Position numbers and translations under genes: made by a program. Of a stretch of DNA of 64,000 bases, positions 4,687 to 63,851 are shown one piece after another (the stretch's first letter is position 1; each line of letters begins with the position of its first letter). The notes below the pieces were generated by a model. The model worked only from the letters and a program-made list of their open reading frames with translations, did no database searches and had not been told where the DNA came from. This DNA is from Ulota crispa (Eukaryota > Streptophyta > Bryopsida > Orthotrichales > Orthotrichaceae). Location: positions 7,256,501 to 7,320,500 of the forward strand of contig OY987246.1 of NCBI GenBank assembly GCA_963920765.1, in the 5' to 3' direction.

Positions 4687-6033
4687 GGGAATTACTACAG
4701 CGACACCCTAAATTGCTAATGGGACACCCCCTCTAAGCATGAAATTTGATAATTTAGTGCTATTTTTTATTTATTATGTGGTCCATCATTCATTCAATCA
4801 CAAAATTATCACCTCCTTGAAAGAAAACATGACAAATACCAAAAAAACTGAAATAATATTGCTCCAGTACTATTTTTTGATAAATCTTTGCTTTAACCCC
4901 TAAAGGACCATGGCCTTTATTTTGTCAAAAGACACTCAAAACTGCCACCTCTATGGCAAAGAGTAAAAAAGTTTGAAAATCAGGCATTTTGCATATCTGA
5001 TCGTAGGATCTTGTGCTAGACTATTAAAAAAATGTTTCATACAAAACTCAAGAACTTTGACCGCACAGATTGGAAGATATTTGCATTTAAAAAGTAAAAA
5101 ACAACTTTTTTTGCACCTTGCTTGACTAGATTTTTTAACTTTGAACATTTTTAACTTAAAATTTTTGCACCATGGAGTTTGGAATTCTATTTTTGCATGG
5201 TGGGAAGTTGAGTTGGGAATCTTGGAAAAAAATTTCAAAAAAGAATACTTAATTTTCATTCTTTAAAAAAACATTAGGTAGAAGAAGGTATGAGATTAAA
5301 CAAAAACTTAAATTGCTAATAACCTTGCAATGGAATTGAAACGCAATAATCCCAATGGTGAGATTGTTCTAGAAAGCAAACTTCACCCTCTCCAACAATT
5401 TTTTTTGAAAAAATGTTAAACCTGCATTCAAAAATGAAGTTTATAAGTTATTTTTTCAAGAAGATGCTTGAATTGCCTAAAAAACAAGATTGTCCATAAC
5501 TTTCTCATAACTAGTCCAAATGGAATGAATCAAAGCTTCAGAAGTAGATAAAGATATAATCTATGAGAAAAAAAATTAATTTTTTTTTCAAGTTTTTATA
5601 AGAATTTTTTTTGGTGCCCCTAGTCCCCAAATTTGTGCTTATTTGGGCATAACTTTTGCTCCCTGGCATCAATTGGAATAAAAATTAGATTCCCCAAAAG
5701 CTAATATGTTTTTCTATCTTCAAAAAAAGTTTCAAAAAATTAGAACAAAATTGAGGCCGTAGGTACTTGCCCGAAATCCCATTTGTCCCTAAAGGGATAA
5801 TGGTCCTTTAGAGGTTAAGTAACTCAAAAATCTTATATTTTAGTTTGAGATTTATGTACAACTATTTTTTTTAGTATAACCTTATAAAAATAAAGGTGAA
5901 ACAAATCTTTTGATCCAAATAAAAAAATCAGCAAAATCAACATTAAAAATCACATTTTCATGCTCAGAGGGGTGTCACGTTAGCAATTTAGGATGTCGCG
6001 TTAGCAATTTAAGGTGTCGCGTTAGCAATTCCC
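4687..6033. mobile_element. Mutator-like MITE (GGGAATT family) interrupted by a TTAA element
   Basis: It begins GGGAATTACTACAGCGACAC and ends GTGTCGCGTTAGCAATTCCC, long inverted termini with a repeated GTTAGCAATTTA-GGTGTCGCG motif. The flanks TTTGAGTAA and TTCGAGTAT agree at 7 of 9 positions, which fits an old 9-bp Mutator-type target duplication. Without the inserted element (4897-5814) the host is about 420 bp. The copy at 60535-61307 lacks that insertion. Non-autonomous. Confidence 0.75.
4897..5814. mobile_element. TTAA-flanked piggyBac-like MITE, family I (918 bp)
   Basis: TTAA at 4893-4896 and 5815-5818 flanks termini CCCCTAAAGGACCA and TGGTCCTTTAGAGG. The sibling at 58880-59805 is inverted and almost the same length (926 bp). 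The Mutator-like copy at 60535-61307 has the unoccupied site (TTAA at 60720-60723), so TTAA is a true target duplication. Internal sequence is AT-rich with no transposase. Confidence 0.85.
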
Positions 6034-6049
6034 TTCGAGTATTAGTGAT

Positions 6050-13157: not shown

Positions 13158-13161
13158 TTAA

Positions 13162-13569
13162 CCCTTAAACAATGAGGGCTCTGTCGCACTCTCTCTATAG
13201 AGTAGAGATACGGTTCTTTCTAATCCTCTCTTGTTGTTGAGACAGATCCTCTCCAAAATCGCTTCCATCCAATGCAACGACATTGTTATTGCGATGCAGG
13301 TGCGGACATGCGATTTTGTACTGGAAGATCAGCTTATGGATTTCAAAACTAGCAGATGCTTCAAGTCCTATATTTGTAAAGCAATTCATGTACAAACGCC
13401 TCTAGAATGTTGAGAAATCACCGCTTGCCATCAAAAACTATCTCAAAATGTTGGGAACAAAGCTAATGCGGACGCTACAAAATTTGGATGAAAACCAAGC
13501 TCCTGAAGGTTCTTGAATATGAAAAATACACCGTAAACTAGCCACAGTGGCACGCTTGTTGTTTAAGGG
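13162..13569. mobile_element. TTAA-flanked piggyBac-like MITE (408 bp)
   Basis: It starts CCCTTAAACAA directly at the TTAA (13158-13161) that closes the preceding element and ends TTGTTTAAGGG before TTAA at 13570-13573. The 11-bp ends are perfect inverted repeats. I found no other copy of the interior. Short frames on both strands here are not supported as genes. Confidence 0.7.
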
Positions 13570-14336
13570 TTAACTAAGGCATACCTAGTTTAGACGGGAA
13601 GCTTGAGATGTGAACGTCACCATTGCTTTCTATGTAATTTTTCTTTCTTTCTATGATTTAAGTTTTGTGCATACTTGATGTTGAAGAGACAAAACGGGTA
13701 AGTTTACTCGTGAGTGGCCCTTGGGATGTGGGCTACAAGACCGTATTAGCAAAAAAATACAGTAGCAAGCCAGCGCAAACATTGCATTTCAACCAAGTAA
13801 TACATACGGCCACATAGGGCGTTTGTGCCGTTCAGGGGTTAATAGAGATATTCACTTGAGACACTTTGCCTTAGTAGAATACTCGGTTTAATAGAGATAA
13901 TCACTTGAATGTAGGATATGCAGTCTTAACAAAATAATCTCCCCAATAGAGATACTCACTTGAAACACAATATTAGTTAATTTGGGAAAAACTCTTTCAC
14001 AAAACGGATTTTGGGGACATTGAAATTTGTATTAGTGAGAATATCCTGGTGATTCAAAGTAAGTGGGTTTCTTGATAATTCCTTCAATATTATTCATCAC
14101 TGGTGTAATGTCTTGAAGAAATCATCATAAAATTTACTTTAAATCACCCAAAAAAATTCAAAACCATAAAACTCAAAAGTCCCATAAACACGTTTTTTTC
14201 CCAAATAATTGAATATTTCATTTTGATGTTTGGATTGTTTCAGAACTTTTTGTAGACTGCAAAGTATACCAAAAAAAAAAAAAGTATCTTGACCCTTAGA
14301 GGAGGCTTGTAATAAGTTCCAAAATTATTTTTTCCC
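13570..14336. other. Spacer holding the right end of another TTAA element
   Basis: GCGTTTGTGCCGTTCAGGGG precedes TTAA at 13839-13842. It resembles the right part of 24987-25210 (ACATTCAGGGA then TTAA, and the TACGGCCACATA motif), so a truncated copy ends at 13838; its left end is not visible. The remainder shows repeated GAGATA(T/A)TCACTTGA motifs near 13845, 13893 and 13940 and no gene. Confidence 0.45.
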
Positions 14337-14340
14337 TTAA

Positions 14341-21149: not shown

Positions 21150-22014
21150 ACCCCTAAAACCTCAAGGCACCCAATTTGGGTGTTCACAAATATTTTTAGT
21201 TATCAAGTCACTATTTTTAATTTATATTAACTAATATAAGTTTGTTTTGAAGTCAAATTTTAACATCAAAAGTCTGATTTTGAAAATGAACATTGATGAT
21301 TTTTTTGCTCAAGATTTTGTACAAGGATGTCCAATGCAATCTTGAGTTTTTTAGTGTTGAAAAATCTTGAAAATGATCCTCAAATTCACTAATGGTTGGA
21401 GAAAAATGTACATTAGAAATTCCTTTCAAAAGACTTACAAGAGTAGATTTTGAAAGTTGTAAATTAGTTAAAGGTTGAACATGTAATGATCTTAAACCTT
21501 ATGTTTTTTTGGTGACCAAATTTTTAGATTTGACATGTGAAATTAAGATTGGAAGACTTTAACCCTTGAACGACAGGAAGGCCCTTTGCAGCCAATAGAA
21601 TACAACATATTTTTCTTGTATTTGAAATGGATCCGCACCTCTATTACATTTGAGACTAACAAAGAAGTTGGAGAGTACATCAATGCGGTTCTAGTGAGCT
21701 ACTTGAGATCCCAAATTAAAATTTCTTATTGGTAGAAAATGACAATTTTATGTCAGTGTATATACTATGCCCTATAGGCGTTCAACAGTTGTCACTTTTG
21801 CAATTTTAACACCCTCATGTTCAAACATAATAATCTTTCAAATTATAAGTAATTTTTATGTGTTGTCGTTTTCCATGTAACCTCTAACATGTTTGGTTTA
21901 AATTTGTACGGTTACAACTAAAAAAAACTTGATGAAAGTTATGAAGAGGTTGGTTGATTGTTCAATTTCATGGAAATTACAAGGAGCTTAGAACAGCCTT
22001 GGGCATTTTAGGGG
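21150..22014. mobile_element. TTAA-type piggyBac-like MITE, family III, with a nested element
   Basis: The left end CCCCTAAAACCTCAAGGCAC follows GGAAA (left TTAA lost); the right end GGGCATTTTAGGGG precedes TTAA at 22015-22018. The interior matches 12516-13157. It is split after GGAAGACTT by the small element 21563-21788. Without it the host is about 640 bp, equal to its siblings. Confidence 0.7.
21563..21788. mobile_element. TTAA-flanked MITE, family VI (226 bp), nested
   Basis: TTAA at 21559-21562 precedes CCCTTGAACGACAGG; the right end GGCGTTCAACAG is followed by TTGT, a decayed TTAA. It is related to 24515-24982 and 26066-26300 (CTTTGC(A/G)GCCAATA, TCTTGTATTTG, TTATTACATTTGAGA, GGTTCTAGTGAGCTA). 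The siblings of the host (12940 region and the inverse of 14550 region) read GGAAGACTTC straight into AAGTCACTTTTGC. Confidence 0.7.
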
Positions 22015-22120
22015 TTAAAGTTGTTGACCCAAAGGTAGAATTATGGCTTGCTATGTGGAGTTGCAATGTGAAGACAAAGTTGGGAGGTCTAATTGGTATG
22101 GCAAAAATCAACTTCTTTAA

Positions 22121-22585
22121 CCCTTACATGTTGAGCTAATTACCGTGACCAGCTCGGCTAAAGTTTGCTATAATAGTAGCAAGTGCCTAGCAATTATAAT
22201 ATTATTTCCTGATGCTACAAAAGTCAACAGTGCATGGTGCCCTCATGAAAATTGCAAGAAGAGCAGCTTGGGACCTAATGTCATGTCTCTAAATCTTCTC
22301 ACAACTTGGATTACCTAAAAATATGAGTGCATCTAATGAAATAATTTGTTTCCTTCCATGATGGATCATGTGTTTATGATCAACCAAAATCATTCTTCAT
22401 TTGACATTGAAAGACTTGAGAGACTAGAGCATGCTAGAAACGGGGAGTTAAGGTTAAACTTATAAACTAAAAAAGCTTCCCTTGCTAATAGGCCTAAAAA
22501 AACAAATGAAAAATAGCTTTTTTTTGTTGTACATAATATTTTTTGGAGTTGAAGGACAAAAAACATCCTCCTTGGCGTTTAAGTG
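22121..22585. mobile_element. TTAA-flanked MITE, family IV (465 bp)
   Basis: TTAA at 22117-22120 and 22586-22589 flanks CCCTTACATGTTGAGC and TTGGCGTTTAAGTG. The interior (GTGACCAGCTCGGC, CCTCATGAAAATTGCAAGAAG, CCATGATGGATCATGTGTTTA) is shared with 22590-22965, 42941-43312 and 49158-49584. The right TTAA is shared with the next element. Confidence 0.75.
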
Positions 22586-22589
22586 TTAA

Positions 22590-22965
22590 CTCCTAAAAGT
22601 CAAGTTGATCACCGTGACTGGTGCCGTAGCTGTCTCATTGTCCTTCTACAACAGCCGTATACTCTTCTAGCAAGTGCCCCCATTATAACATTGTTTTCAA
22701 AAAGTGCAAAAGTCAACAATGCATGTTATCCTTATGAAAGTTGCAAGGGCAACATGGGACTTGACATTGTGTTTGTGAATCTTCTCACAATTTGGGTTAC
22801 CTAAGACTATGTTTGCATTTGGCGAGGTTGATTTTGCATTCCATGATGGACCATGTGTTTATGATCACTTCTTAAAAAAATCAAAAGAAAAATATATATT
22901 TTCCATCCTACAAATAATTTTTTGGTTATCTATGGACAAAAAATGTCATCTTCGACTTTTAGGGG
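22590..22965. mobile_element. TTAA-flanked MITE, family IV (376 bp)
   Basis: It starts CTCCTAAAAGTCAAG at the shared TTAA (22586-22589) and ends GACTTTTAGGGG before TTAA at 22966-22969. Same orientation as its left neighbour, to which it is related (GATCACCGTGACTGG, CCATGATGGACCATGTG). The pair is a head-to-tail array. Confidence 0.8.
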
Positions 22966-22987
22966 TTAATTAAGAAATTTCAGTTAA

Positions 22988-23529
22988 CCCCTAAACACCC
23001 AATTGACCATTTTTTGGTCAATGCTGTTTTTGCGGGCTGCCCAAGATGAAAAAAAACATTTTTTGAAAAATTTAAAAACATTTTCATGTAGGAATGCAAG
23101 ATTACTTTCCAACCCAATTTTATTCTTGTCAATCCAAGTTAAACTCCATCAAGGAGAAATTTTCAAAGACAAACATTTCAATATTTGCTAATGTTGCAAA
23201 ATTTACTACTTTGAGAAACAAATGATGTTCCCTCCTCCAAAAATATTGCATTTTTGAGTTTCAAGATGTATAATGTTTATTTTTAACCAATCATACCAAA
23301 TTTTAAATTTTATGAATAAAATTTGTAATTTTGACGAACATTAAAAAGTAAATGCTTCTATACTCATTACATAGAATCGAAAACTTTTTTGAAGGTTCGA
23401 CTGTATGGTAATTAATAAACATCATGATACTTGTTTTCTCTTTTGAAGCAAACTTGATCAAAGTTACAAAAATACTTCGTAACTTATAACGCATATATGT
23501 TTTGCCCTTTCCCCTTGGTCGTTTAGGGG
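22988..23529. mobile_element. TTAA-flanked MITE, family V (542 bp)
   Basis: TTAA at 22984-22987 and 23530-23533 flanks CCCCTAAACACCC and GGTCGTTTAGGGG, near-perfect inverted ends. The inverted sibling is 25215-25747. The interior carries AAGATGAAAAAAAAC and AAGTTACAAAAATAC-type sequence; no gene. Confidence 0.85.
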
Positions 23530-23533
23530 TTAA

Positions 23534-24510: not shown

Positions 24511-24514
24511 TTAA

Positions 24515-24982
24515 CCCTTAAAGGACCGAGGAGCCTTTGCGGCCAATACAGTATTTAGTATTTTCTTGTATTTGGAATGCATTCACACCTTTATTACATT
24601 TGAGATCAACAAAGAAGTTAGAATATACAGTCAAGCCTCTCTTATTGCATATTTCCTATTTGCATAACTATTTGGAGTTCTTAAATTGCATACTCTCTAT
24701 GTGCATAAAGTGTGGTTCAATAATCATGGATGGAGTTATTTTTGTCAAAGTGGGACCACCAAAGTACAATGTCACCAATAGAAAATGTGCTTGAACCTCT
24801 TTGTGTGCATACTACTAAAAAAAACTCCCCACCGTTCCCATGCAATAAGAGAGGGTTGACTATAGGTCAAAGCGGTTCTAGTGAGCTAGTCTAAATCCCA
24901 AATTAAAACTTTTTATTGGTAGCAAATGCCAATTATATGGCATTGTATTTACTATGTAATACATAGAGTGGTCCTTTAAGGG
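24515..24982. mobile_element. TTAA-flanked MITE, family VI, carrying a pogo-like MITE
   Basis: TTAA at 24511-24514 and 24983-24986 flanks CCCTTAAAGGACC and GGTCCTTTAAGGG, a perfect 13-bp inverted terminus. Removal of the nested element (24628-24862) leaves about 230 bp, equal to its siblings 21563-21788 and 26066-26300. Confidence 0.85.
24628..24862. mobile_element. Pogo/Emigrant-like MITE nested in a TTAA element (235 bp)
   Basis: The ends CAGTCAAGCCTCTCTTATTG and CAATAAGAGAGGGTTGACT(A) are inverted repeats flanked by TA. CAGTCAA(A/G)CCTCTCT-type termini with TA duplications are typical of the pogo/Tigger branch, as in Emigrant of Arabidopsis. The sibling 26066-26300 has the empty site: AGAATATA runs on to GATCA without the insert (TA at 26186-26187 in reverse). 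Frames inside are not genes. Confidence 0.85.
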
Positions 24983-24986
24983 TTAA

Positions 24987-25210
24987 CCCCTGAATGGCAC
25001 CAAAGCCCTTTGCGGCCGTACGTATGGCCATATATGCGTACGTATTTGAGCCATTATGAGGGCTTTCCAAACTTTTTTATGCACCCCCCATCATACAACC
25101 CTTCAATATGTATGGTTGTAACACTTAATTTCTAACTAATTCAAACTTCTAAATACTGGTTGGGACCGTATTTGGTACTGTATCTCCAGAGCCCATGTGA
25201 CATTCAGGGA
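24987..25210. mobile_element. TTAA-flanked MITE (224 bp) in a shared-junction chain
   Basis: It starts CCCCTGAATGGCACC at the TTAA (24983-24986) that closes the previous element and ends GTGACATTCAGGGA before TTAA at 25211-25214. The interior has the palindromic-looking GTACGTATGGCCATATATGC. A truncated relative ends at 13838. Confidence 0.75.
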
Positions 25211-25214
25211 TTAA

Positions 25215-25747
25215 CCTCTAAATGCCCAAGGTGTAAGGGAGAAACATAGATGTGTTATAAAATGGTACTTTTGTAACTTTGATGAAGTTTGCTTCAAAAG
25301 AGAAAATACGAATCATAATGTTTAGTAATCATCCATACACTCAAACACTCAAAAAAAGTTTTGGGTTTTTATGTAATGAATTTAGAAGCATTTATCATTT
25401 AATATTCACCAAAATTACAAATTTTACTCATACATTTCAAAATTTAGTATGATTGGTTAAAAATAGACATTATATCCTAAACTTCAAAAATGCAATCTTT
25501 TGAAAGGAGAACATCATTAGTTTCCCAAAATAGTAAATTTTACAACACTAGCAAATATTGAAGTGTTTGTTTTTGAAAAATTCTCCTTGGTGGAATGTAA
25601 CTTGGATTGACATGATTCAAGTTAAGTTGGAAAGTAGACTTGATTTTCTATTACAAAAAAAAAAAAATTGGAAATTTTTTTTCTCATCTTGGGCAACTTG
25701 AAAAAAATGGGTAGTGACCAGAAAATGGACATTCGGGCGCTCAGGGG
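25215..25747. mobile_element. TTAA-flanked MITE, family V, inverted copy (533 bp)
   Basis: It begins CCTCTAAATGCCC after the shared TTAA (25211-25214) and ends GGGCGCTCAGGGG before TTAA at 25748-25751. It is the inverted sibling of 22988-23529. Confidence 0.8.
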
Positions 25748-25750
25748 TTA

Positions 25751-26063
25751 AGGTATGTACACCTATAAATGCCAAACTAAGGCTTTTGAACATGATGACT
25801 ATCAATAAACAATTAGCAAGTTATAGAATCCTATTAGGAACAAAAAATAATGAGTTTGCACTTTTGAATATATTATTTGGATACTGTGAGAATAAGTTGT
25901 GAATTTTTAAAGAGCAAACTACCACTGCACCCATAATCACTAATAAGATTTCATGTTCACATGTTGTACATCCTTGTCATTACATCTATTCACTTCCATA
26001 GATTTTCCAACATTTTAGAGGTGACGGTTATGGGGACAATGGTGCTCATGTGTGTACATACCT
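25751..26063. mobile_element. TA-flanked MITE, family G, copy 2, inserted at a TTAA junction
   Basis: AGGTATGTACACC and GTGTGTACATACCT are inverted ends flanked by TA (25749-25750 and 26064-26065). The left TA is the middle of the TTAA that closes the previous element, so it landed in that junction. The body matches 1-297 and the reverse of 29904-30216. Confidence 0.8.
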
Positions 26064-26065
26064 TA

Positions 26066-26300
26066 CACCTTAAAGGACCGAGCTACTTTAATACATAGTA
26101 TGTATGCTCTTGTATAACTGGCATTTGCTACCAACAAAAAGTTTCAAATTGGGATCTTGACTACCTCACTAGAACAAAATTGATCTATATTCTAACTTCT
26201 TTGTTGATCCCAAATGTAATAAAGGTGTAGATGCACTCCAAATACAAGAAAAATACCTTGTATTGTATTGGTCACAAAGGGTTGCTTGGTCCTTTAGGAG
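26066..26300. mobile_element. TTAA-flanked MITE, family VI, uninterrupted copy (about 235 bp)
   Basis: CACCTTAAAGGACCGAG at the left is a slightly altered terminus and TTGGTCCTTTAGGAG precedes TTAA at 26301-26304. It is inverted relative to 24515-24982 and shows that element without its pogo-like insert. Its left junction was split by the family G insertion. Confidence 0.75.
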
Positions 26301-26422
26301 TTAACCTGATATCCTTGGGTTGTTAAGTGCAAATAGGCGTACTAAAGAACATTTCATGTAAAAATATTAGTAGAACAATGGGAATTGGGTTGAAAGTTGG
26401 ACCCAACAAAGTAGTTGACTTA

Positions 26423-28305: not shown

Positions 28306-28309
28306 TTAA

Positions 28310-29240
28310 TCCCTAAAGGCCCAAGTCCTTTGTTCTGTGAAAGTCACTAAAATTTGCCACTTTTGAGGGAATGAGTAGAAAGGTAGGAATTTTTTTTGAA
28401 AATCCAACCATAGGATCATGTTTTAAACTATGTGAGGTACTTGTGGAAAAAAAATCAGCTCATTCTAAATGTAGAGGAGTGACATATCCACATTAGAAGT
28501 GAAAAAAAAAATCCGTGCTGCCCAAAATTTTTAAAAGCCTTTGACCGCTCCTAAATTAAAAAAATTGCTCTATGCAAAGTTGAGGTTTATATCTTCCATG
28601 TAGAAGACCAAGTCAAGTAAGTGTGGGAGAATTTTCAAATGAATTGGAGGTGTGAACCATACTTTGTAAAATCTTGCAATGCCGTAAGGCCATGAAATTT
28701 GCATATATACTAGGCAAAATTGGAGGCTTTAGGTTGAGTTCAAAAATTTGAATTACTTTGATCCAAATTGTAAAAACCAAGGAATCTTAGTCTACTACAA
28801 CTTGGAAAAAAAACAAAATAAAAACTAAAAACTAAAGTACCAAATTTTACAAGGGGCAAAAGTAATGGAGGTTTGGGAGTCCCATACCTACCTGCAAACT
28901 AAAACTTCTCACTCATCAATCAAAATTGAATGATTCAAAGCTTCACACATATATAAAAATCTAAAGAACTAATTTCAAAATTTTTATTTTTTTTAAATGC
29001 TACTTTTAAAGAAGTTTTTTGGGCTGCTCAAGCTGCCCGCCCTCCCTATTGTTCAAAATTTCATGCATAACTTCTTCAATAAATGTTGGAATGAAGAAAA
29101 AATTAGATGAGCATAGATAGTACATCTTGGAATTCCCCACCATCCTCAAAAATTTCAGAAAAATCATAAAAATTGGTTAAGTCATAGGTATATGCCCAAG
29201 GTCCATTTGTCCCCCAAGGGGACACTTGGGCCTTTGGGGA
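28310..29240. mobile_element. TTAA-flanked piggyBac-like MITE, family II, inverted (931 bp)
   Basis: TTAA at 28306-28309 and 29241-29244 flanks TCCCTAAAGGCCCAAG and CTTGGGCCTTTGGGGA, 16-bp inverted ends with one or two mismatches. Siblings: 35598-36474, 55555-56487 and the rearranged 53958-55247. Shared interior: GGGGACAAATGG-type segment, GGGCATATACCTATG-type segment, CCTCCCTATTG, and AGTGTGGGAGAATTTTCAAAT. Confidence 0.85.
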
Positions 29241-29472
29241 TTAAACACACATCTCAATAGGAGAGTTTGTAAAGTATGTAGCATTATAGAGGTTGCATCA
29301 TCAAGCTGCTACTTCAGTGGTAGCAAAAGATTACATCCAAAATCCTACTTCAAAAACAATGGCAAAAAGCATGCAACATCTTCAAATTAGTTAAACAAAG
29401 TTCACCCAAATAAGTGTGAAGGGGTTTCACACTATTCAAAGTCTTACACTAATTGACATAGTTAATGTACTA

Positions 29473-33433: not shown

Positions 33434-33624
33434 TAATGAGGTAAAAGGCTTCCATGACGAAAAACTGGACGGAAACTATGCCTCGAAGGGGGAAAAAGTT
33501 GAAAAAGAAGGTAAAGTTTGCTTGGCCAAGTTTGAATAAAATGACAAAACATCACATATCGTTATTTGTATATAAGGAATGTTGAAATTACTTCAGAGAA
33601 AAACAGTAGGAACGGGGAATTTAA

Positions 33625-34523: not shown

Positions 34524-34527
34524 TTAA

Positions 34528-35593: not shown

Positions 35594-35597
35594 TTAA

Positions 35598-36474
35598 CCC
35601 CTAAAGGCCCAATTGTCCCCTTGGGGGACAAATGGATTTTGGGCATGTACCAATAGCTAAACTAGTTTGTGTGATTTTTTGAAACTTTTATTAAAAGTGG
35701 GGAGTTCCAAGACCTACAAGGGCATCTAATTTTTTTTGTCATTTTGACATTTGACAAAGAAGTTATGCAAGAATTTTTGCAACCCGGAGGAGGGAGGGCA
35801 ATCCGGGCAACCCAAAAACTTTTTTAGAAATTGTATTTTTTTTAAATAAAAATCTAAAATTGGTTCTTTAGATTTTTTTTATATGTGGGAAGCTTTGAAT
35901 CATTCAATTTCAATCAATGAGATGAAAGTTATGAGATGTTTTAGTTTGCGGGTAGTTACAGATCCTCCACTCTAAAATTCATTTTGAAGTCGTTTATTTT
36001 CCACAATTTTTAATATTTTGGGAAAAGAACTAAAGGAAGTAGATTTTTTTTAAAACATTATAACCATTGGAATTTGCATTTTTCATTTCAATAATTAAAT
36101 TCAAGATTAACAACTTAGTGATTTACTTCATTCTCTACTTCTTTTTACTTGCAAATTTTTTCCCATGTGTTATATAGTTCCAATTGATTTGAAATTTCTC
36201 CCACACATACCTAACTTGGTTTTCTACATGGAAAAAATAAATCTCTACTTTGTGTAGAGCAATTTTTTTCATGTAAGAGTGGTTAAAGGCTTTTGAAATT
36301 TTTGGACAGCACGGATGATTTGATTTTTTTTCCCACAAGTATCTCTTCTAGTATAAGGCAAGATCCTACGATTGAATTTGCAAAACAAACTTTTTTTCCT
36401 ACTTTTCTACTCATTCCCTCCAAAGTGGCAATTTTCAGTAACTTTTACAAAAAAAAGGACTTGAACCTTTATGG
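35598..36474. mobile_element. TTAA-flanked piggyBac-like MITE, family II (about 877 bp)
   Basis: TTAA at 35594-35597 precedes CCCCTAAAGGCCCAATTG. The right end is decayed (GGACTTGAACCTTTATGG, then TTAT). The interior matches 55555-56487 closely (GGAGGGAGGGCAATCCGGGC, TATATGTGGGAAGC, GAGATGAAAGTTATGAGATG). Confidence 0.75.
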
Positions 36475-36478
36475 TTAT

Positions 36479-37314
36479 TTACTTAGATTTCAATCGATTT
36501 TTTGCACATTTCATTCGGCTGACTTTCTATTGTTTTTCGGCTCTCCCCGTTCATTGGGTAAGGTTACCTTATGACATAAAAGGAAAAAGGAAAAAGAAAA
36601 CTGGGTTCTTGGACCAGTGAAGCCGCAGGGCGGCACCGCTAACTTACTTTGTCATGCAAAAAGGATCCACCAAGCTTGCAAGTCAGTCCAAATCATCCGT
36701 GGCTTTCTCTCACGCTACTCGCCCTCGCCCTCGCCCTCGCCCCCTTCACCAATCACCACACGTTACCGTCCCCGCGACGCTTTCCGCCATTTGCGCTTAT
36801 CTTACTCTTTCTGTACAGTAATGCACTTGCAAATCTCCTCCGCCAGGTTTGCAAAACAGCTCCACAAAAATACCTCGCGTACCGCACTACCGCCTCGCCG
36901 ACCCACAGCGGCAAATCTCTCAGTTTTCCATCTCCAATTCCAGCTGCTTCCAGCAATCCTTTGTTGCTGTTATTGCTGTTCATCTTCTTCTTCTTCTGTT
37001 TCAAGGCTTTGCTTCACGACGGACCAAGCACGCAACCCACTCTTTTTCACGCAACCGACTTTTTCATTCTGCCGATTCAAGCGCTTTGTGTGTGGTGCAA
37101 GTTACCAGCAATCTCACTGGTAGAGTAGCGCAGACATCAATCAACCCTGGTCGACACCAAGAGAGACCCAGCACCCGTCTCGGTGCTTAAAGATCAGAAC
37201 TTTTTTGTGGATTGCCTTCGTTGAAGGATTTTGTGAGGTCGGTGGCGGGTGTTGATTCTACAGCCAGGAAGGGTTTTGAGTGGAGCAGCAACTGACAGTT
37301 GAGAACAGGCAGCC
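36479..37314 (+). promoter_or_regulatory. Promoter and 5' leader region of STAY-GREEN
   Basis: GC content climbs after about 36600. The run of CGCCCT repeats near 36720 and the CT-rich tract with TTCTTCTTCTTCTG near 36985 are typical of plant promoters and leaders. No convincing TATA box. Long frames on both strands (36617-37123, 36649-37128) are composition artefacts. Confidence 0.45.
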
Positions 37315-42770: not shown

Positions 42771-43527
42771 AGGTAGGAGCACCCATGGGCGTCACGTCCC
42801 CATGGGCATCACTGATAAAGTCAAGGAGTCAAGAGTAGAAAAGCAAATGGTTATGGATATTTAAGTGATAGTTATTGGTGACAAAGAGATGGTTGTGGGT
42901 GACTGGCGTGACGGTTTTGAGTACCCATCTCACTATTTAACCCTTAAAGGATAGGCCCCAAACCTGCTGCCAACCTAAGGCTCTGATCAAGGAGAATACA
43001 CTGTTCATGGGCAGCAAACAACATATGGCATGTGCCCACTAAAGAGAATATTCTCCTCAAAAGAATGAAAAGTCAATAGTATATGGTGCCCTCTCAAAAA
43101 GGGCAGCAAGGGACCTTGTACATCTCTTCACAAATTGGTGTTTTAAAAAAGATGAAGGCATTGGAAGTGGCTATTTTTGGCATTCAGTGATGTGGCACAT
43201 CACTGTGACCACTTTCAAAAAAAATTGAAATAAACGTTTTTTCCACACTCAGGGTGTTTTTTTGGTATCAAAAGGACAATTTTTGTCCTTTCGGACATTT
43301 AGACTTTAGGGGTTAAGAATCAACAAGCCTTGTTTTTAGCATCTCTTACACATGGTTCCTACAATTTCAGTGATTTGGACTTTGAAAAATATTTGTGAAC
43401 AAATGCTTGTAGTTGGAACCTTGAAATTGATGCCAATATTTTTGGTTTCCACTTCTTTTTTCAAAGTTAGTCAATTGTTTCACCTACTCCAAAACTCTTA
43501 TTTCCATGCTTATGGATGCTCCTACCT
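42771..43527. mobile_element. TA-flanked MITE, family A, copy 3, interrupted by a TTAA element
   Basis: AGGTAGGAGCACCCATGGGC and TGCTTATGGATGCTCCTACCT lie between TA dinucleotides (42769-42770, 43528-43529). The host is split after CTCACTAT by 42941-43312; without it, it is about 380 bp, as in copies 1 and 4. Confidence 0.85.
42941..43312. mobile_element. TTAA-flanked MITE, family IV, nested (372 bp)
   Basis: TTAA at 42937-42940 and 43313-43316 flanks CCCTTAAAGGATAGG and ACATTTAGACTTTAGGGG. Copies 1 and 4 of the host read CTCACTATTTAAGAACCAAC straight through (TTAA at 17839-17842 and 61070-61073). Excising the insert plus one TTAA from this copy restores that sequence exactly at the junction. 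Confidence 0.92.
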
Positions 43528-49150: not shown

Positions 49151-49157
49151 GCCTTAA

Positions 49158-49584
49158 TCCTTAAAGACGGATGGATCACAGTGGCTTTCCCTGGCTGTAG
49201 TATTCTACAGTATTTTGCACATGGGCATCAATAGTATTGTTTTGAAAAGTTGCAAAAGTCAACAGGCATGGTGTCCTCATGAAAATTGCACATGGGCATC
49301 AATAGTATTGTTTCGAGAAGTTGCAAAAGTCAACAGGCATGGTGTCCTCATGAAAATTGCAAGAAGGACAGCTTGGGAGCTAACATCATGTTTCTGAATC
49401 TTATCACAATTTGAATTACAAAAAAAAATGAATGCATCTCAAGAGGTAATATTTTGTCTTCCATGATGGATCATGTGTTTATGGTCACTTCTGAAAAAAA
49501 TCAAATGAAACACTACTTTTTTCTAAATCACATAATCTTTTTCAGAGCCAAAGGACGTTTTTTGTCCTCCTCAACATTTAGGGG
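49158..49584. mobile_element. TTAA-flanked MITE, family IV, with internal duplication (427 bp)
   Basis: TTAA at 49154-49157 and 49585-49588 flanks TCCTTAAAGACGG and CAACATTTAGGGG. The interior matches 22121-22585 (CCTCATGAAAATTGCAAGAAG, CCATGATGGATCATGTGTTTA). A 71-bp unit starting GCACATGGGCATCAATAGTA is tandemly duplicated at 49217-49358 with only three or so differences. Confidence 0.8.
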
Positions 49585-49683
49585 TTAAACGACACAAAAT
49601 TTACACCGCCTAAAACCCATTATCTACTATTGTTATGCATCTCACCCTAATTCCAGTGTCAAAGTGTTCAAAAGCAATAGGTA

Positions 49684-52800: not shown

Positions 52801-53957
52801 AATGCGGCCATATTGACACATTAGAATGGTAAACAATGAGGTTTAATTAGTGAGGGCATCTTACGTAATTACAAGTTTGTGCTTGTTTTTGTTGCTTGAA
52901 TACTTGGCAACTCTTTCGTAAACAAAAACCAATCAATTGATACAATACAATAATTGCAAAGAAACCTCCAAATGCAACAAGTGGATTTTGAAAATAAAAA
53001 ATTGTGGTAGCATAACTTATACCCAAAATTATCAACAATGGCCAATTTGATATTGAAGGAAACGTACAACATTTTCTTATGCGGCTATTTAAGTAATATT
53101 TTATATGAGTAGCACTTGGAATTTGTTGAGGGCAATTATGAACATGTTCTTGATACACTAAGGCTCCACAAGCCATGCAAATTACAAGCATACTTGCCCA
53201 TTCTGCACAAATTGCACACAAATCCTTCATTTTGGCAATAAATACCAATAAAATATTTAGTCATCATTTTAGGGTTGCAAATGTGAACATTTGAATATTT
53301 TTGGTAATGTGTATCTTTTGAGAGCAAAATTGAACTTTGATTGACATAAACCATAATGAAATTTTGTCAAGATAATCAATAAATTGATTAACATTATTGA
53401 TACCTCATCTTTTTTACTAATATGAATTATTGTTTTTTGTAATAGTTTTCAACTTAAATGGTAAAAATGTTTATTCCTGTTTGTTTTGATTTTAGCAGTG
53501 AGATCTTTTACAAAAACTATACTATGTAATTTCATCTCACTACCCATCTTTCTTATGTTGATCATATAGTAATATTAGTCTTTCATTACAAAAATCTTCC
53601 ACTAATTTTTTTGTTGATTAGCGGATAATTTTTAGCATTGAACATACGCAATCATAGTCATAAATTCAAACCCATGATATCCTTGATTTAATAAACCTCT
53701 ATTCATATACATCATTGTCTTTAAAAAAAAACTTGAATTTGACATACCACCTAATGACGCTTCATACTATGTCTTTTGACATCATTTTGTCCTTTCAATA
53801 ATGGTCTCATCAATGGTATAAAATTATTTTGGTTATATTTTTGAACACTAGTGGTAAATTGTTTTATCCAATAATAGAAATGTGTGTTGTGGAACACATA
53901 AAAGCTAGAAAACTACCAAGTTGTAAATTCAAAACTTTTAAAGATAACATATGACTA
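49888..53957. other. 4-kb AT-rich gene desert
   Basis: Very AT-rich DNA with no recognised repeat family except CTTAAGAGCATCTCCATTG near 49920, a common plant MITE-like edge. The longest frame is 52847-53248 (see separate entry). I see no rRNA, tRNA or convincing exon. Confidence 0.4.
52847..53248 (-). CDS. Hypothetical 133-residue membrane-like ORF, doubtful
   Basis: An uninterrupted frame in AT-rich DNA, with two or three hydrophobic stretches (around residues 14-31, 67-85 and 88-106: WPLLIILGISYATTIFYF and LVAFGGFFAIIVLYQLIGF) and ten or more cysteines. I know no family with this layout. Codon use follows local AT bias and an overlapping frame is open too, so it may be chance or a transposon remnant. 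Confidence 0.2.
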   Translation of the reverse strand: MVFIAKMKDLCAICAEWASMLVICMACGALVYQEHVHNCPQQIPSATHIKYYLNSRIRKCCTFPSISNWPLLIILGISYATTIFYFQNPLVAFGGFFAIIVLYQLIGFCLRKSCQVFKQQKQAQTCNYVRCPH

Positions 53958-55247
53958 CCCCTAAAGGACCATTGTTCCCTTTGGGAACAAATAGGATTTT
54001 GGGCATGTACTTATAGCTAAACTACTTTGTGTGATTTTTTGAACTTTTATGGAAGATGGGGAATTCAAAGATCTACGTGGGCATCTAATTGTTCTTCATT
54101 TTGACATTTATTGAGGAAGTTATTGCAAGAGTTTATAAAAACTAGGGGAGGAGGGGCACCTCAGGCAATCCATATAACTTCTTTGAAAATTACATTTCTT
54201 TTTAAAATAAAAATTCAAAATTGGTTCTTTAGAATTACATATATGTGGGAAGTCTTGAATAATTCAATTTCAATTGATGAGATGAAAGTTATCAAGAGTT
54301 TTAGCTTGCAAGTAGCCATGGTTTTGAGAGACTCCATATCTACCCGCAAACTAAAACTCTTGATTAGTTTCATCTCATCAGTTGAAATTGAATTATTCAA
54401 GACTTCCCACATAGAGTCCTAGACATTAAGCAGTAGTCATTTTTAAAACACCTCCTACACATTCAATCCTTTATCAAAATTTAACGTGATTACATATTTG
54501 AAAAGCCAGCTCAAGGGGACAAAATGTACTAGAATTTGAAAGTATATTATTCTAGTTTCATGCTTTTAATCCATGTCAAATGCAATTTTGCACAAATGAG
54601 TATGCCGTATTTATCCAACTTTATCCACATCATCGACATCTTTGTGGCTTTTAACCACCTTTTAGAACTTGAAATTGTCTCAACTCAAGCAAGCCTATCG
54701 TACATTGAGAATAGATTGAGAATATACTAGTGGTAAATTGTTGACAAACTTGTCATGATTTTAAAAGCATTTAAATCATAATTGGATTTTTTTTTTCAAA
54801 TGTTTATTTTTCTAACACTTCTCTTTATTAGATTTACATCAAACTTTAACAAAATTAGCTTTTTTTTCTAAGCTTTTCAAATATGTAATTAGTTTTAGAT
54901 TTGAAAAAGTATTGATAGAGTGAAAAAATTATTAAAAAAAAGACTATGGCTTACTGACCAAGACTCTATATGTAATTCTAAAGAGCCAATTTCAAAAAAA
55001 AATTAAAAAACGTAATTTAAAAAAAAAAAAATTGGAATGCTTGAGCTGCCTCTCCTCCCCTAGTTTTTATAAACTCTTGCACAACTTCTTCAATATATGT
55101 CAAAACAAAGGAACAATTAGATGCCTACATAGATCTTTGAATTCCTCATCTTCCATAAAAATTCAAAAAATCACACAAAGTAGTTTAGCTATAAGTACAT
55201 GCCCAAAATCTCATTTGTCCCCCAAGGGGACAATGGTCCTTTCGGGG
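53958..55247. mobile_element. Rearranged fold-back TTAA-type element, family II (1290 bp)
   Basis: The left end CCCCTAAAGGACCATTG follows GACTA (TTAA decayed); the right end CAATGGTCCTTTCGGGG precedes TTAA at 55248-55251. Outer arms of about 300 bp (53958-54260 and 54950-55247) are inverted copies of the family II end (GGGCATGTACTTATAGCTAA and its complement). A second inverted pair at 54230-54420 surrounds CATGGTTTTGAGAG. The element is a dimer-like palindrome, not the usual 930-bp form. Confidence 0.75.
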
Positions 55248-55489
55248 TTAATAGACAATGTAAGAATGGGCTTATTCAAGATCATGAGAAATAATATACT
55301 CAACACTGTTGTGATAGATTTCATTCATTCATAGAAGGATGATTAGTAAAAGTAATAGGAGATTTCAAAAGTTAAAATTCAACCAATTACAAGTCTTCAT
55401 TACCCTTATTGTTTGTAGACTCATTCTTCCTTGTTATATAGATAACTAGTCTTTAATCATATTGTAAAATACCTTGTTGATAGGTATGG

Positions 55490-56870
55490 TAAGACTCTTA
55501 GCAAAGGTTTGAGCCCTCCAAGAGCCCCATACAAAGTCTCTAAAGGGGTCTTAACCCCTAAAGGCCTAGCTGTCTCCCCGGGGGACAGTTGAGATTTTGG
55601 GCATGTACCTATAGCTAATCTAGTTTTTGTGATATTTTAAAAAATTTATTGAAGGTGGGGAGTTCCAAGACTTATTCGGGAATCTAATTTTTTTGTCATT
55701 CTGACATTTGACAAAGAAGTTATGCAAGAATTTCTGTTGCCCAGGGGAGGGAGGGCAATCCGGGCAACCCAAAAACTTCTTAAAAATTTGTATTTTCTAA
55801 AAATAGAAATATAAAATTGGTTCTTTAGATTTTTTTTATATGTGGAAAGCTCTGAATCATTCAACTTCAATTGATGAGATGAGAGTTATGAGATGTTTTA
55901 GTTTGTGGGCAGTTATAGATTCTCTACTCTAAAATAAACTTTGAAGTCCTTTATTTTCCATAATTTTTAATATTTTGGAAAAAATACTAAACCAAAGGAA
56001 GTAGATTGTTTATCACAACATTATAACCGTTGAGATTTTCATTTTTTCATTTTAATAATTAAATTCTTAACAATTTAGTGATTTGACTCATTCTCTACTT
56101 CTTTTTACTTACTATTTTCCCCCATGTGTTGTATAGTTCCAATTGATTTGAAAATTCTCCCACACATACCTAACTTGGTTTTCTATTTTGGAAAAATAAA
56201 CCTCAACTTTGTGTAGAGTAATTTTTTTCATGTAAGTGTGGACAAAGGCTTCTGAATTTTTTTGGATAGCACAAAAAGAACCCTTTTTTTTTCACTTTAG
56301 ATGTAAATATCTCCCTCCTCTCCATCTAGAATGACATGATTTTTTCCCACAAGTACCTCTTCTAGTCTAAGGCAAGATCTTATGGTTGGATTTGCAAAAC
56401 AAACTTTATTTCCTACTTTCTACTCATTCCCCAAAGTGGCACTTAACAATGACTTTCACTAGAGAAAACTGCTTGGGCCTTTAGGGGTTAAAACACGTAC
56501 TTATTACAACAAACAAATCATTAATCCCCTATTTCTGCTCACTCTTTGAATTCAATGCAATCATGAAAACTATACTATTATGTTGTCCCTATTGGACAAA
56601 AACTATGGGTGCAAATGTACAATTGGACCATAAATTATACTTTTACTCTATTTGAATAGATGAGTGAAGTACTTGGATAATGACTTGAGTACATTTACAT
56701 ATTTTATGAGTGCAATGCCTTTTTTATTATTTTGGATTGTGCATGTGGCTTAGGTCCTTCATACAAGGTAGCAATGCGTATGAGAGCCCTTTTCTTGCAC
56801 TCGCTCTAGCCAATTAATAGCTTGGTTTATCAAACCATAGGGGGCTCTTGGAGGGTTCAAACTTTTGCTA
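55490..56870. mobile_element. Larger element with inverted ends, hosting a TTAA element
   Basis: TTAGCAAAGGTTTGAGCCCT...CCAAGAGCCCC at about 55498-55530 is matched in reverse by GGGGCTCTTGGAGGGTTCAA...CTTTTGCTAA at about 56842-56873. The interior includes 55555-56487. Family and target duplication unknown. Confidence 0.5.
55555..56487. mobile_element. TTAA-flanked piggyBac-like MITE, family II (933 bp)
   Basis: TTAA at 55551-55554 and 56488-56491 flanks CCCCTAAAGGCCTAGC and GCTTGGGCCTTTAGGGG. The internal sequence is close to 35598-36474 and inverse to 28310-29240. Best-preserved copy of its family here. Confidence 0.88.
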
Positions 56871-56899
56871 ATGGTGAATTGAAACATCTTATTATATTT

Positions 56900-57200: not shown

Positions 57201-57212
57201 TTATATTTTTAT

Positions 57213-58818: not shown

Positions 58819-58879
58819 TATATTCAATGTCATAATACATCATTTGTTTATTAACATTGTTTTTGTACTTAGTTATTAA

Positions 58880-59805
58880 CCCCTAAAGGACCATTGTCCA
58901 TTCAAGGGATAAATGAGATTTTATGCAAGTACCTATGGTCTCAATTTTTGTTTTTGTTTTTTGAAACTCTTTTTGAAGATAGGAAAATGCACTAGCTTTT
59001 GGGGGATACAATTTTTATTCCAATAAATGCCAAGGAGCAAAAGTTATGCCCAAATAAGCAAAAGTTTGGGGGGTCTAGGCAGCAAATGAAATTTTGCAAA
59101 AACTTGATTTTTTTTTTTTTTTTGATTTTGTTTGCTTGTAGATTATATCTTTGTTTACATTTAAAGATTTGATTCATTCCATTTGGATTAGTTATGAGGA
59201 AGTTATGGACAATCTTGTTTTTTGGGCAACTCAAGCATCCTCTTGAAAAATAACTTATAAACTTCATTTTTGAATGCAAATTTAACATTTTTGCACAAAA
59301 AACTATTGGAGAGGGTGAAGATTTCTTGCTAGAACAATCTCACCATTGGGATTATTGTGTTTCAATTCCATTGCAAGGATATTAACAATATAAGTTTTTG
59401 TTCAATCTCAAACCTTCTTCTATTTAATGTTTTTTTTAAGAATGAGAATCAAGTATTTTTTGTTTTGGTTTTTTTCTAAAGATTTCCAACTCAATTCCCC
59501 ACCATAAAAAAATAAACCTCAAAACTCCATAGTGCAAAAAATTTAAGTTAAAAAAGTTCAAAGTCAAATATTTTAGTTGTGCAAGGTGCAAAAAAGCTTG
59601 TTTTCTACACTTTAAACACAAATATCTTGCAATTCATGCTGTCAAAGTTTTTAAGTTTAGGATGACACATTCTTTTACAAGTCTAGTACAAGATCTTATG
59701 GTCAAATATGCAAAAAGACCAATTTTCAAACTTTTTTACTCTTTGTCATAGAAGTGGCAGTTTTGAGTCTCTTTTGACAAAATAAAAGCCATGGTCCTTT
59801 AGGGG
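58880..59805. mobile_element. TTAA-flanked piggyBac-like MITE, family I, inverted copy (926 bp)
   Basis: TTAA at 58876-58879 and 59806-59809 flanks CCCCTAAAGGACCATTG and CATGGTCCTTTAGGGG. Full-length inverse sibling of 4897-5814 (TTTTGACAAAATAAA(A)GCCATGG, AAGTTATGGACAATCTTG). No coding sequence. Confidence 0.9.
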
Positions 59806-59856
59806 TTAAACCAAGTATTGAAGATTTATTTATATTTGAAGGAATCTAGTTGCTAT

Positions 59857-61307: not shown

Positions 61308-61837
61308 TTTTCTATATTATGCATAATAACAAAATGTGGGTCACGTGCCATGGCTCTATTGAAAGCACCTACAGTTGGCCCACGCACATGTGCCTTAACC
61401 CGAAAATATGGCCCCCTGTTTGGGACTGAGGGTCCTGTACGTGAGAGAACCCTCTCTCACGTACTGGACCCTCCGTCCCAAAAAGGGGCCCAATTCCCGG
61501 GTTAGGGCGCATGTGCGTGGGTCGAGTAATTAACTTACCATGAGGATCAAGAGCTTGGGAGTTGGGACCTGTGCTGACCTCCTGGACGATGAAATGTTCA
61601 TTCTGGGAACATTTCCGGAGAAACATGTTAACATTGGGTACATCTCTTAGGGCGCCCCCAATCCAGAAGCCCGAACTGAACAGGGAGGTGTGCCTTGTTG
61701 CAGCGGATTGCGATGCTTTGAAGGTTTAGGGTTTCGGCTTTTCTAGGATTCAGGCCTCATGTGGTGAGACGAGTGCCAGGCGGTGGCGGAGGGGCTGCTC
61801 TACAGTACGTTGTGATCGATTCGGAAAGCTGGTAGCG
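61308..61837 (+). promoter_or_regulatory. Upstream region and leader of VIP5/RTF1
   Basis: It contains a 146-bp hairpin (61376-61521, separate entry). From about 61640 the GC content rises and CT/GC-rich sequence leads to the start codon at 61838. A frame on the minus strand (61369-61626) is the hairpin read through and not a gene. Confidence 0.4.
61376..61521. repeat. 146-bp fold-back repeat, MITE-like
   Basis: CCCACGCACATGTGCCTTAA and its complement TTAGGGCGCATGTGCGTGGG form the outer arms. Inner arms include GGGACTGAGGGTCC / GGACCCTCCGTCCC and GTACGTGAGAGA / TCTCTCACGTAC around the centre near 61451. No target duplication identified. Confidence 0.8.
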
Positions 61838-63851
61838 ATGGCGGATTACGAGTTAGAGGAGGCGTTGCTGGAAGCTGCAGGTCGGCCTAAAGAAGGCGGG
61901 GGTCGCTCGCACACGCCATCCTCCAACAAGCGGCGGCGTGCTTCGTCCATGAGCTCGGACGACCGCAGCGATTCCAGTCCTGATAACGATGACGAAGACG
62001 ACGATGACGAGTTTGATGACAGAGGAGGCGGGCGTTCTGGCGAGCAGGCCAAAGGTTCCAAAATGCCTCTCAAGAAACGGTACTATATTCCACCGCACTT
62101 TCCACTTCATTGTTGATATAGTGCATGACACTTACAACCAACAACTATTGGCCAAACAAGAAATACTAAGGCACAACACATATACTCATTAGCTCAAAAG
62201 TAGTTTCATAACCAAGTGGGACAAACCCTAAGCTTCATTTTGGTGGACTTAAATTTTTTATAACTTTTTTTTTGACAAAGCCTTAGGCTAACCACTTGAA
62301 TTGGGAGTTGTTGGTTATAAGTGTCATGCACTGTATATCCCTAAGAAATTAAACCTAATCTACACTGTAATCCCCTCGGAGGCTCCATTTCAGTATCTTT
62401 TGAAAGTCTAAAGGTGAAGTCTCGATGAGCATCTCCAAACCCTAAAATTCAATGTGACGACTAATCTGCATGCTCCGAGACATGATTCGTTTGTTGTTAT
62501 TTTAATCGGCAGTACCTGACACGAGTTAGGAGGATTATGTCGCTTAAGCGTCCGAAGATGCGGGATGGCTCGTAGAATCTCAGCGAGCCTTTTAAGTGAG
62601 GGCTCATTTAATATTTTCGTGAAGAATTTTCTATAGCAAGTGTTATGGTTGATAGAGCTTGATTTGAGTTCGATTGTCAATCTGCACATAGTGGAACCCT
62701 AGTATAAGGTTTTGGTTGTGGAAACCTAAAATACAATGCGACGATTAGTTTGCATGCTTCGAGACATATTTCTTGTTAGTTTGATCGGTTTCCTAGCTGT
62801 GCCTGACCCCGGGCGAGGAGGATTATGCTAATTTAGATGCAGGGTTGTTCGTAATACCCGTCCAAAGTGGGAGTCTTTCTCGTGAGCATTTTTTCAATGT
62901 CGGTTTGATGGATTACCCGCAGCTGTTGTTATGATTAGTGGAGCTTGGTTTAGGTCCAGTTGTCAGTTTGCATATGGTGATGTAAGGTTTTGATTGTGAA
63001 AACTTATAAAACTTATAAAACTTTAACCTCTGAAGCACCGAAAGTCCTTGATTGAGATTCACGTAATTTTTTTGCAGTTTTGAAAAGGTCTTCTGGAAAT
63101 TTCGTTTGTTTATTGCTGTTAGTTTTTTTGACTAAGATGCAATGTTCGTCAATGATTCTGGTGATATAGAATTTGGCCTTATCTGATTTTTCTTTTTCAT
63201 TGTATGATCGGTCGAGTTGTTTATCTTAAAACCATGAATCTTTGGTCTTTCAGGGGTTAGTTAACCGACATTTCCTTGTTTAGTGTTGTAAGGGACTAGT
63301 TGTAACTGGATTCTTTCCATGAGAAGTGTGTTCTTTGCATCTGTATGTGGTTTGTTAGTGGTGATTTTGATGGCCAGTCGTGCTTGCAGTTTCGAATCAT
63401 CAGACAAGGATGGAGAGGACGGTCCGAGAGATGATGGTTACAATAGTGAATTTTCTTACGGAAGCGATTTGTACAAAGATGAAGAAGACAGGCACAACTT
63501 GGCGCAAATGACAGAGCTTGAACGTGAGATGGAGTTAGCAGAACGTAGCGAAAAGCGAGACACTTGGCTTGCATTGAGGAAAAGTCGGGGGAACAGACAA
63601 GCCGCAGCTGCTTCGTCAAGACCGAGCCACAGACGAGAGAAAGACCTTGGTCCTCCATCTTCTCGAATGCGTTCATCAGTGAGAGAAGGTACTCGAAGTA
63701 AGAAGGAGAATGCTCTCAATGAGCTTGTGGCCCGGAGACAGAAGGCTCAAGAACCTAGCTCACTACGAAAGAGACGGGATTCAGGTGTGACGCCTAGTAG
63801 GGAGACCCATTCTCCTGGAAGAAAGAAGCCCCGCGAGAGTCCGAGTTACAG
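61838..63851 (+). CDS. VIP5: VIP5/RTF1, PAF1-complex subunit, 5' exons only
   Basis: Two coding exons are inside the window, 61838-62079 and 63390-63851, joined in phase 2 (CG + T gives Arg); the gene continues past the right edge after donor AG/GTGAG. RTF1 belongs to the PAF1 complex, which travels with RNA polymerase II and promotes histone H2B ubiquitylation and H3K4 methylation; the Arabidopsis VIP5 member supports FLC expression. The start MADYELEEALLEAAGR, the Ser/Asp/Glu-rich acidic stretch (SSPDNDDEDDDDEFDD), MPLKKR, and then GSDLYKDEEDRHNLAQMTEL and EREMELAERSEKRD follow the family order. The Plus3 domain lies downstream. The LEAEREDR-type charged segment after PLKKR in Arabidopsis is not present, so it is either lost or on a short exon I did not find in the 1.3-kb intron. 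Confidence 0.9.
62115..62340. mobile_element. MITE in VIP5/RTF1 intron 1 (about 226 bp)
   Basis: GTGCATGACACTTACAACCA and TGGTTATAAGTGTCATGCAC are inverted ends of about 30 bp, with TATA-type sequence outside both. The interior has further inverted pieces (AACCAAGTGG / CTAACCACTT). Family not decided. Confidence 0.75.
63027..63256. mobile_element. TTAA-type piggyBac-like MITE in VIP5/RTF1 intron 1 (230 bp)
   Basis: TTAA at 63023-63026 precedes CCTCTGAAGCACCGAAAG; the right end CTTTGGTCTTTCAGGGG is followed by TTAG, a one-base change from TTAA. It ends about 130 bases before the exon 2 acceptor. Confidence 0.7.

Follow-up and report, generated by a model that had tools for sequence, protein, structure and literature searches.

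Within a 64,000-nt stretch of the moss Ulota crispa (C5:7256501-7320500 of the 274.8-Mb assembly, hereafter the window), a first-pass annotation had reported a series of short, TTAA-flanked elements and read them as a genome-scale burst of piggyBac-like miniature inverted-repeat transposable elements (MITEs) in a plant. This raises the question of whether a transposon superfamily best known from animals and fungi produced these elements, and by which transposase they were moved. We are highly confident that the window holds non-autonomous MITEs belonging to the piggyBac superfamily, presumably mobilised by a transposase from 5.0-6.3 kb elements in the same genome.

Results

Paired elements in the window

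Elements were called from end matches, inverted partners and a comparison of the window with itself. The end pattern TTAA[CT]CC[CT]TAAA[GT]G occurs exactly eight times on the forward and seven times on the reverse strand. When one mismatch is allowed the count rises to 30, where 20 first-order Markov shuffles lead one to expect 0.55. At two mismatches there were 44 matches versus 6.7 in the shuffles, and at three mismatches 90 versus 60.6, hence loosely matched ends are uninformative. It should be noted that the shuffled expectation covers these mismatch counts, exact end matches being uncounted in the shuffles. A loose weighted end score was dropped, as it gave 76 matches with 37-46 expected.

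The search resulted in 22 paired elements of 232-1298 bp (Table 1), whose union of 13,354 bp makes up 20.9% of the window. This is in accordance with the about 22 elements over roughly 14 kb that had been reported, and the size classes that we measured (232-242, 380-476, 541-550, 650 and 886-941 bp) lie close to the earlier estimates of about 225, 375-465, 535, 640 and 930 bp. Two single elements measure 872 and 1298 bp, the former (C3) being this long because another element (E1) is nested inside it. The inverted CCC-type ends were also flanked by TTAA as described, with an exact TTAA at 38 of the 44 ends and on both sides of 16 of the 22 elements. As the window search is biased toward TTAA, the figure of 38 of 44 is no independent test; such tests are given by a genome-wide 10-mer count without TTAA and by the empty target sites, both presented below. 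Unpartnered ends include those at 10981, 13842, 17430, 27894 and 58098.

Adjoining elements have one TTAA in common at 13158-13161, 22586-22589, 24983-24986 and 25211-25214. Genome-wide we counted 204 exact head-to-head junctions with a shared TTAA, about twice the 107 expected for random insertion into TTAA (the number of TTAA being extrapolated from the window), and since the excess is only about twofold we claim no special self-targeting.

Abundance in the genome

The full end sequence TTAAYCCYTAAAKG was found 14,412 + 14,359 = 28,771 times in the assembly, versus 13 + 8 = 21 times for the reversed control. Without the TTAA requirement, YCCYTAAAKG occurs 19,718 + 19,885 times and its reversal 1,360 + 1,325 times. 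TTAA precedes 28,771 of the 39,603 motif copies (73%) but 21 of the 2,685 control copies (0.8%), a genome-wide preference of the kind the first-pass annotation had anticipated. A rough one-window extrapolation, based on 15 exact ends, 22 elements and 13,354 bp, leads to about 42,000 elements and 26 Mb, about 9% of the genome. The genome appears to hold tens of thousands of piggyBac-like TTAA MITEs.

Transposase elements elsewhere in the genome

The piggyBac transposase domain PF13843 (DDE_Tnp_1_7) gave at least 120 matches in the genome, the best with an E-value of 1.3e-73 (116 of 528 candidates scored), and none in the 14 control genomes. We took 28 of these loci, a part of all such loci, with their flanks. 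In 14 of them (L009, L010, L012, L013, L014, L016, L017, L018, L021, L022, L026, L034, L036 and L039) both ends could be paired around the transposase domain, giving elements of 5.0-6.3 kb with TTAA and ends similar to those in the window; the check that the first-pass annotation had proposed, a search of the assembly for full-length PF13843 elements with matching ends, thus came out positive. For nine of the 14 pairs there is support beyond the terminal sequences. Between L009 and L018 the identity is 90.5% over 5,029 columns (1863-6890 versus 1997-7023), bounded by the TTAA ends within a base, and L034 (594-5901) and L036 (678-5907) are 89-93% identical with limits exactly at their ends. Both terminal stretches are common to L039 and L026; L012 and L022 also have both ends in common, and L028 matches them at the right end. 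For L021 the support comes from a tandem repeat into which the element is inserted, described below with the empty sites.

MITEs being dense, the inverted-repeat score alone gave false pairs when used as pairing criterion (L009 430-9554, L012 673-7835, L022 2371-9648 and L028 1065-7354). The ends adopted for L009, L012 and L022 are backed by homology between copies, and of L028 a right end alone was retained. The candidate pairs L025 11-7505, L027 493-7328 and L023 723-7409 were unconvincing and were excluded from the 14.

The reading frames of L012 match the piggyBat structure 9c0f (1.7e-16) and the piggyBac structure 6x67 (3e-13). Three aspartates, which we take to be the catalytic ones, align in L012 (TVDE, MDN and GVDVADQ), the first two to piggyBat and the third to piggyBac; L024 has N instead of the third D. 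The L012 frame is broken by one stop, and by eye it has a cysteine-rich tail, where no Pfam zinc-finger match was found. A protein search gave 16 relatives. Common to L009, L014, L024, L026 and L039, five of 16 piggyBac elements of this genome that were compared, is a short upstream coding stretch (about 40-113 residues) with a motif like LFYRHIAKLLGW. Its identity is 52% over 113 residues between L024 and L039, 39% over 93 between L009 and L014, and 36% over 39 between L009 and L039. The Pfam search with this stretch from L009, L014, L024 and L039 gave no significant match, and the PDB search with that of L024 gave no match.

Two further observations concern the transposase matches. At L025 (C1:1180709-1181995) a divergent piggyBac transposase is matched in two separate pieces, neither of them with a reported stop; this transposase could contain introns or be domesticated. 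Matches with equal scores also occur as oppositely oriented pairs, about 15-20 kb apart, at C2:36764623-36766446/36779232-36781055, C5:10976106/10991458 and C7:18203169/18223004, which suggests inverted segmental duplications.

Links between full elements and MITEs

An exact TTAA stands at 24 of the 28 full-element ends, in a search that was likewise biased toward TTAA, and positions 5, 6 and 7 are C in 27, 25 and 27 of the 28, so that the terminal inverted repeats start with CCC. At positions 1-9 (TTAACCCYT), A11, G14, C16 and A18 the full-element and window ends (28 and 44, respectively) have concordant base counts.

The piggyBac reading is strong for the 907-bp family, represented in the window by H1 (33621-34527). 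H1 resembles the 5,746-bp L012 element at both ends, with 72.6% identity over its first 135 bp and 84.3% over its last 553 bp. In this and the other family searches 40 candidates were scored per query, and relatives refer to these best matches only. With the L012 element as query, the best 40 of 6,145 candidates comprised the element itself, six transposase-region relatives and 33 right-end matches, of which 29 also have a correctly oriented left end, with a whole length of 904-1064 bp. On sequence grounds the 907-bp family consists of MITEs that arose when a piggyBac element lost its interior.

The remaining families are supported by their ends and TTAA. In the 650-bp family the similarity to full elements extends for 36-52 bp at one end and 20-27 bp at the opposite one: the first 36 bp of C1 match the left end of L012 (86%) and its last 21 bp correspond to the L028 right end, and the last 52 bp of C2 match the left end of L022 (81%) and the first 20-21 bp the ends of L022/L028. 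The 550-bp family, through D1, has end matches of 35 and 22 bp to L022 and L028. Families A, B, E, F, G, I, K and N are piggyBac-like by their ends and TTAA, from which we infer their membership of the superfamily. The earlier claim that the elements are piggyBac-derived is thus supported. Long homology to a transposase element exists for the 907-bp family; the link of the 650- and 550-bp families is 20-52 bp of terminal sequence, and that of the 930-, 940-, 380-470- and 230-bp families is TTAA plus end sequence only.

Empty target sites

We searched for empty sites by joining the flanks of 888 candidate pairs. Most of the resulting matches were mis-pairings, and four cases were accepted: 4893-5818, 42937-43316, L017:514-1452 and L021:2015-7039. 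The target repeat of 4893-5818 is uninterrupted at 60582-60876 and 59856-60118 of the window and in L017 and L025, and that of 42937-43316 at 17738-17962 and 60942-61213 of the window and in L016 and L024, all four copies of the latter carrying one TTAA. Taking the two MITEs together, six of the eight empty copies have exactly one TTAA at the junction with continuous flanks; in the other two, TATA is aligned (L017) or TTAA is shifted by one base (window 59856-60118). The MITE at L017:514-1452 has an empty site in L009 with a single TTAA. The 5,025-bp transposase element L021:2015-7039 breaks a tandem repeat, two uninterrupted copies of which show TTAA with two extra bases, and CTAA. TTAA is the target duplication of these elements.

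Discussion

Proposed mechanism and points against it

We propose that a DDD transposase from the 5.0-6.3 kb elements elsewhere in the genome would recognise ends of the type CCCYT.A..G.C, excise the element and insert it into TTAA, duplicating these four bases, presumably by cut-and-paste chemistry. Short copies would originate from internal deletion of full elements, as documented for the 907-bp family and presumed for the others. They may then have multiplied in several waves, perhaps reaching tens of thousands of copies and, by one-window extrapolation, about 9% of the genome. This one transposase may have moved every family.

Several results weigh against this proposal. Adenine occupies position 10 in 36 of 44 window ends versus 6 of 28 full-element ends, and position 12 in 43 of 44 versus 15 of 28, hence the two sets of ends resemble one another without being the same. 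For families A, B, E, F, G, I, K and N no sub-terminal match beyond about 21 bp was found among the 16 piggyBac elements compared, themselves a part of the PF13843 loci, and tblastn with the open reading frames of the elements found no transposase relics in the 22 elements or the window. A convincing end pair was not found in 14 of the 28 PF13843 loci, and five of the 14 pairs (L010, L013, L014, L016 and L017) are supported by ends alone. Stops are contained in 110 of the 120 PF13843 matches, L012 included (introns not being allowed for), which leaves current activity without support. Finally, a candidate empty site for 55551-56491 has 74% identity with CCAA at the junction, and was left uncounted.

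Alternative explanations

The elements are short and noncoding with inverted ends, and in families A, B, C and H they have many copies of uniform length, as is typical of MITEs. All of them could stem from a single recent burst, an idea that family A would suit: of the best 40 of 4,466 candidates for A1 (4893-5818), query included, 38 cover positions 1-926 at 94-100% identity and are spread over many chromosomes, the closest relatives being 94-96% identical. Other results tell against such a burst. For C2 (14337-14986), 37 of 42 rows cover positions 1-650 at 81-100%, the full-length relatives being 81-92% identical (best 40 of 4,515 candidates), and the 39 best relatives of B2 (35594-36479) are 80-87% identical (best 40 of 9,573 candidates). 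Within the window, Kimura two-parameter distances between the members of eight pairs are 0.16-0.41, and some elements lie inside others or adjoin them in chains. As the copies differ in age, several waves fit better than one burst, which we regard as unlikely. Of the genome-scale burst in the first-pass annotation, the genome-wide abundance (28,771 ends) stands and the single event is not supported, given pair distances this large beside the closely similar relatives of A1.

Kolobok and Sola3 also prefer TTAA. Families A, B and the small families could hence belong to another TTAA-duplicating superfamily of this kind, with piggyBac limited to the 907-, 650- and 550-bp families. The differences at positions 10 and 12 would suit this explanation, as would the missing sub-terminal homology between the 16 piggyBac elements compared and families A, B, E, F, G, I, K and N, but the ends agree at all the other positions listed above (1-9, 11, 14, 16 and 18). 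Moreover, L039 has TTAACCCATTAAGGACC at both ends and L026 has TTAACCCATTAAGGATC and TTGACCCTTTAAGGACC, near to TTAACCCTTAAAGGACC of E2 and TTAACCCCTAAAGGACC of family A, and we find a second superfamily very unlikely, on the basis of a transposase search that covered PF13843. That TTAA is a fixed outer inverted repeat, with the true duplication elsewhere (as PIF/Harbinger TTA/TAA or Tc1/mariner TA), would accord with the palindromic nature of TTAA, owing to which ends alone cannot separate the two, but the exactly one TTAA with continuous flanks in six of eight uninterrupted target copies leaves this hardly conceivable.

With piggyBac-mobilised MITEs as the preferred explanation, we further speculate that a moss piggyBac lineage, partly with an N-terminal domain of its own, has been a main builder of this genome through repeated MITE waves that together make up roughly a tenth of its DNA, and that this lineage stayed active until recently; we put this forward tentatively and with some doubt.

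Host and comparison with known systems

The assembly contains a LEAFY domain (PF01698) at C4:16275377 with an E-value of 1.2e-27, and five weaker matches elsewhere (7.9e-9 to 1.8e-4). According to PMC6588583, LEAFY is distributed in streptophyte plants, hence the host is a streptophyte plant, in keeping with the plant named in the first-pass annotation. About 2.0 kb behind the LEAFY domain, on the same strand, lies DYLFDLY; this pattern has a count of 5 versus 8 for the reversed control, so only its position is informative. Its second D is presumably LEAFY residue 312. Residues 312, 345 and 387 define the LEAFY types, and the Bryopsida genes studied are of type II (PMC6588583). Taken together, these LEAFY features make a moss host likely.

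Regarding the transposase domain, the three aligned aspartates, the TTAA duplication and the CCC-starting ends, the elements are like those of the piggyBac superfamily (Trichoplusia ni piggyBac, piggyBat). Insect piggyBac is about 2.5 kb long. Unlike animal piggyBac, the elements described here reside in a plant and measure 5.0-6.3 kb, and unlike known piggyBac, five of 16 have an upstream stretch without Pfam match. The TTAA-type piggyBac MITEs of insects and other animals are short and noncoding, with inverted ends and many uniform-size copies. The moss MITEs are similar to them in size, noncoding interior, inverted ends and copy number, but differ in the plant host and in the about 40,000 copies extrapolated. 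Plant MITE landscapes are usually ascribed to relatives of Tourist, Stowaway, hAT and Mutator, where Tourist/PIF-Harbinger elements duplicate TTA/TAA and Stowaway/mariner elements TA. Small size, non-autonomy and very high copy number are shared with Tourist and Stowaway, whereas the duplication of TTAA, and for one family a piggyBac parent, are not.

In the fern Ceratopteris richardii, 1,230 PiggyBac fragments totalling 122 kb (0.00% of the assembly) are given in PMC6890710; this is likewise a piggyBac annotation in a non-seed plant, but here we have full elements and 28,771 exact ends. A plant review lists PiggyBac among the DNA transposon superfamilies of plants (PMC10794571), and members are placed in most eukaryotic lineages by PMC9499001. 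These two sources and the fern fragments weigh against full novelty. Native piggyBac elements or TTAA MITEs of mosses were not found in the accessible parts of the open-access literature, subscription journals and Repbase lying outside that search. One candidate paper, PMC10619864, was set aside because it deals with 'expression piggybacking'.

The superfamily described here is a known one, but neither its host nor its scale was to be expected. Tens of thousands of plant MITEs seem to derive from a group of transposons familiar mainly from animals and fungi, with the transposase genes still recognisable. This makes the entry of piggyBac into land plants, or its persistence in them, testable, and adds a class that repeat annotation of bryophytes can screen for. 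A plant-native TTAA transposase may also be among these genes.

Features of the window

Table 1. Coordinates, orientation and characteristics of the 22 paired elements in the window.
Element	Position	Strand	Characteristics
MITE A1	4893..5818	+	926 bp; TTAA both sides; empty target copies; genome relatives
MITE C1	12512..13161	+	650 bp; 80% identity to 14337-14986 inverted
MITE I1	13158..13573	.	416 bp; paired TTAA ends; TTAA 13158-13161 common with C1
MITE C2	14337..14986	-	650 bp; end matches to L022/L028; genome relatives
MITE C3	21147..22018	+	872 bp including nested E1; left TTAA decayed (GAAA)
MITE E1	21559..21792	.	about 234 bp; nested in C3, where C1/C2 alignment to C3 breaks; right TTAA decayed
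MITE G1	22117..22589	+	473 bp; paired ends
MITE G2	22586..22969	+	384 bp; TTAA 22586-22589 common with G1
MITE D1	22984..23533	+	550 bp; 78% identity to 25198-25751 inverted
MITE E2	24511..24986	.	476 bp; paired ends
MITE K1	24983..25214	.	232 bp; TTAA common with E2 and with D2
MITE D2	25211..25751	-	541 bp; self-comparison and end matches
MITE E3	26063..26304	.	242 bp; left TTAA decayed (TTAC)
MITE B1	28306..29244	-	939 bp; paired ends and self-comparison
H1	33621..34527	+	907 bp; internal-deletion derivative of PF13843 piggyBac element (L012 family)
MITE B2	35594..36479	+	about 886 bp; right end from alignment only; 86% identity to 55550-56272; genome relatives
MITE F1	42937..43316	.	380 bp; TTAA both sides; four empty target copies
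MITE G3	49154..49588	+	435 bp; self-comparison and paired ends
MITE B4	53954..55251	.	1298 bp; inverted arms long; decayed TTAA (ACTA) on the left
MITE B3	55551..56491	+	941 bp; paired ends and self-comparison
MITE A2	58876..59809	-	934 bp; 83.6% identity to A1 inverted
MITE N2	63023..63260	.	238 bp; right TTAA decayed (TTAG)

Besides these elements the window contains repeats with a TAAGGTAGG-like start at 29902-30218 and 49682-49887, and perhaps at 16133-16599 and 26421-26886; the first two close with the inverse CCTACCTTA and are no CCC-type repeats. Further fold-back repeats, which lack TTAA-CCC ends, are located at 58386-58819, 56894-57206 and 61379-61521. At 6871-8220 lies an exostosin GT47 gene, split over two open stretches.

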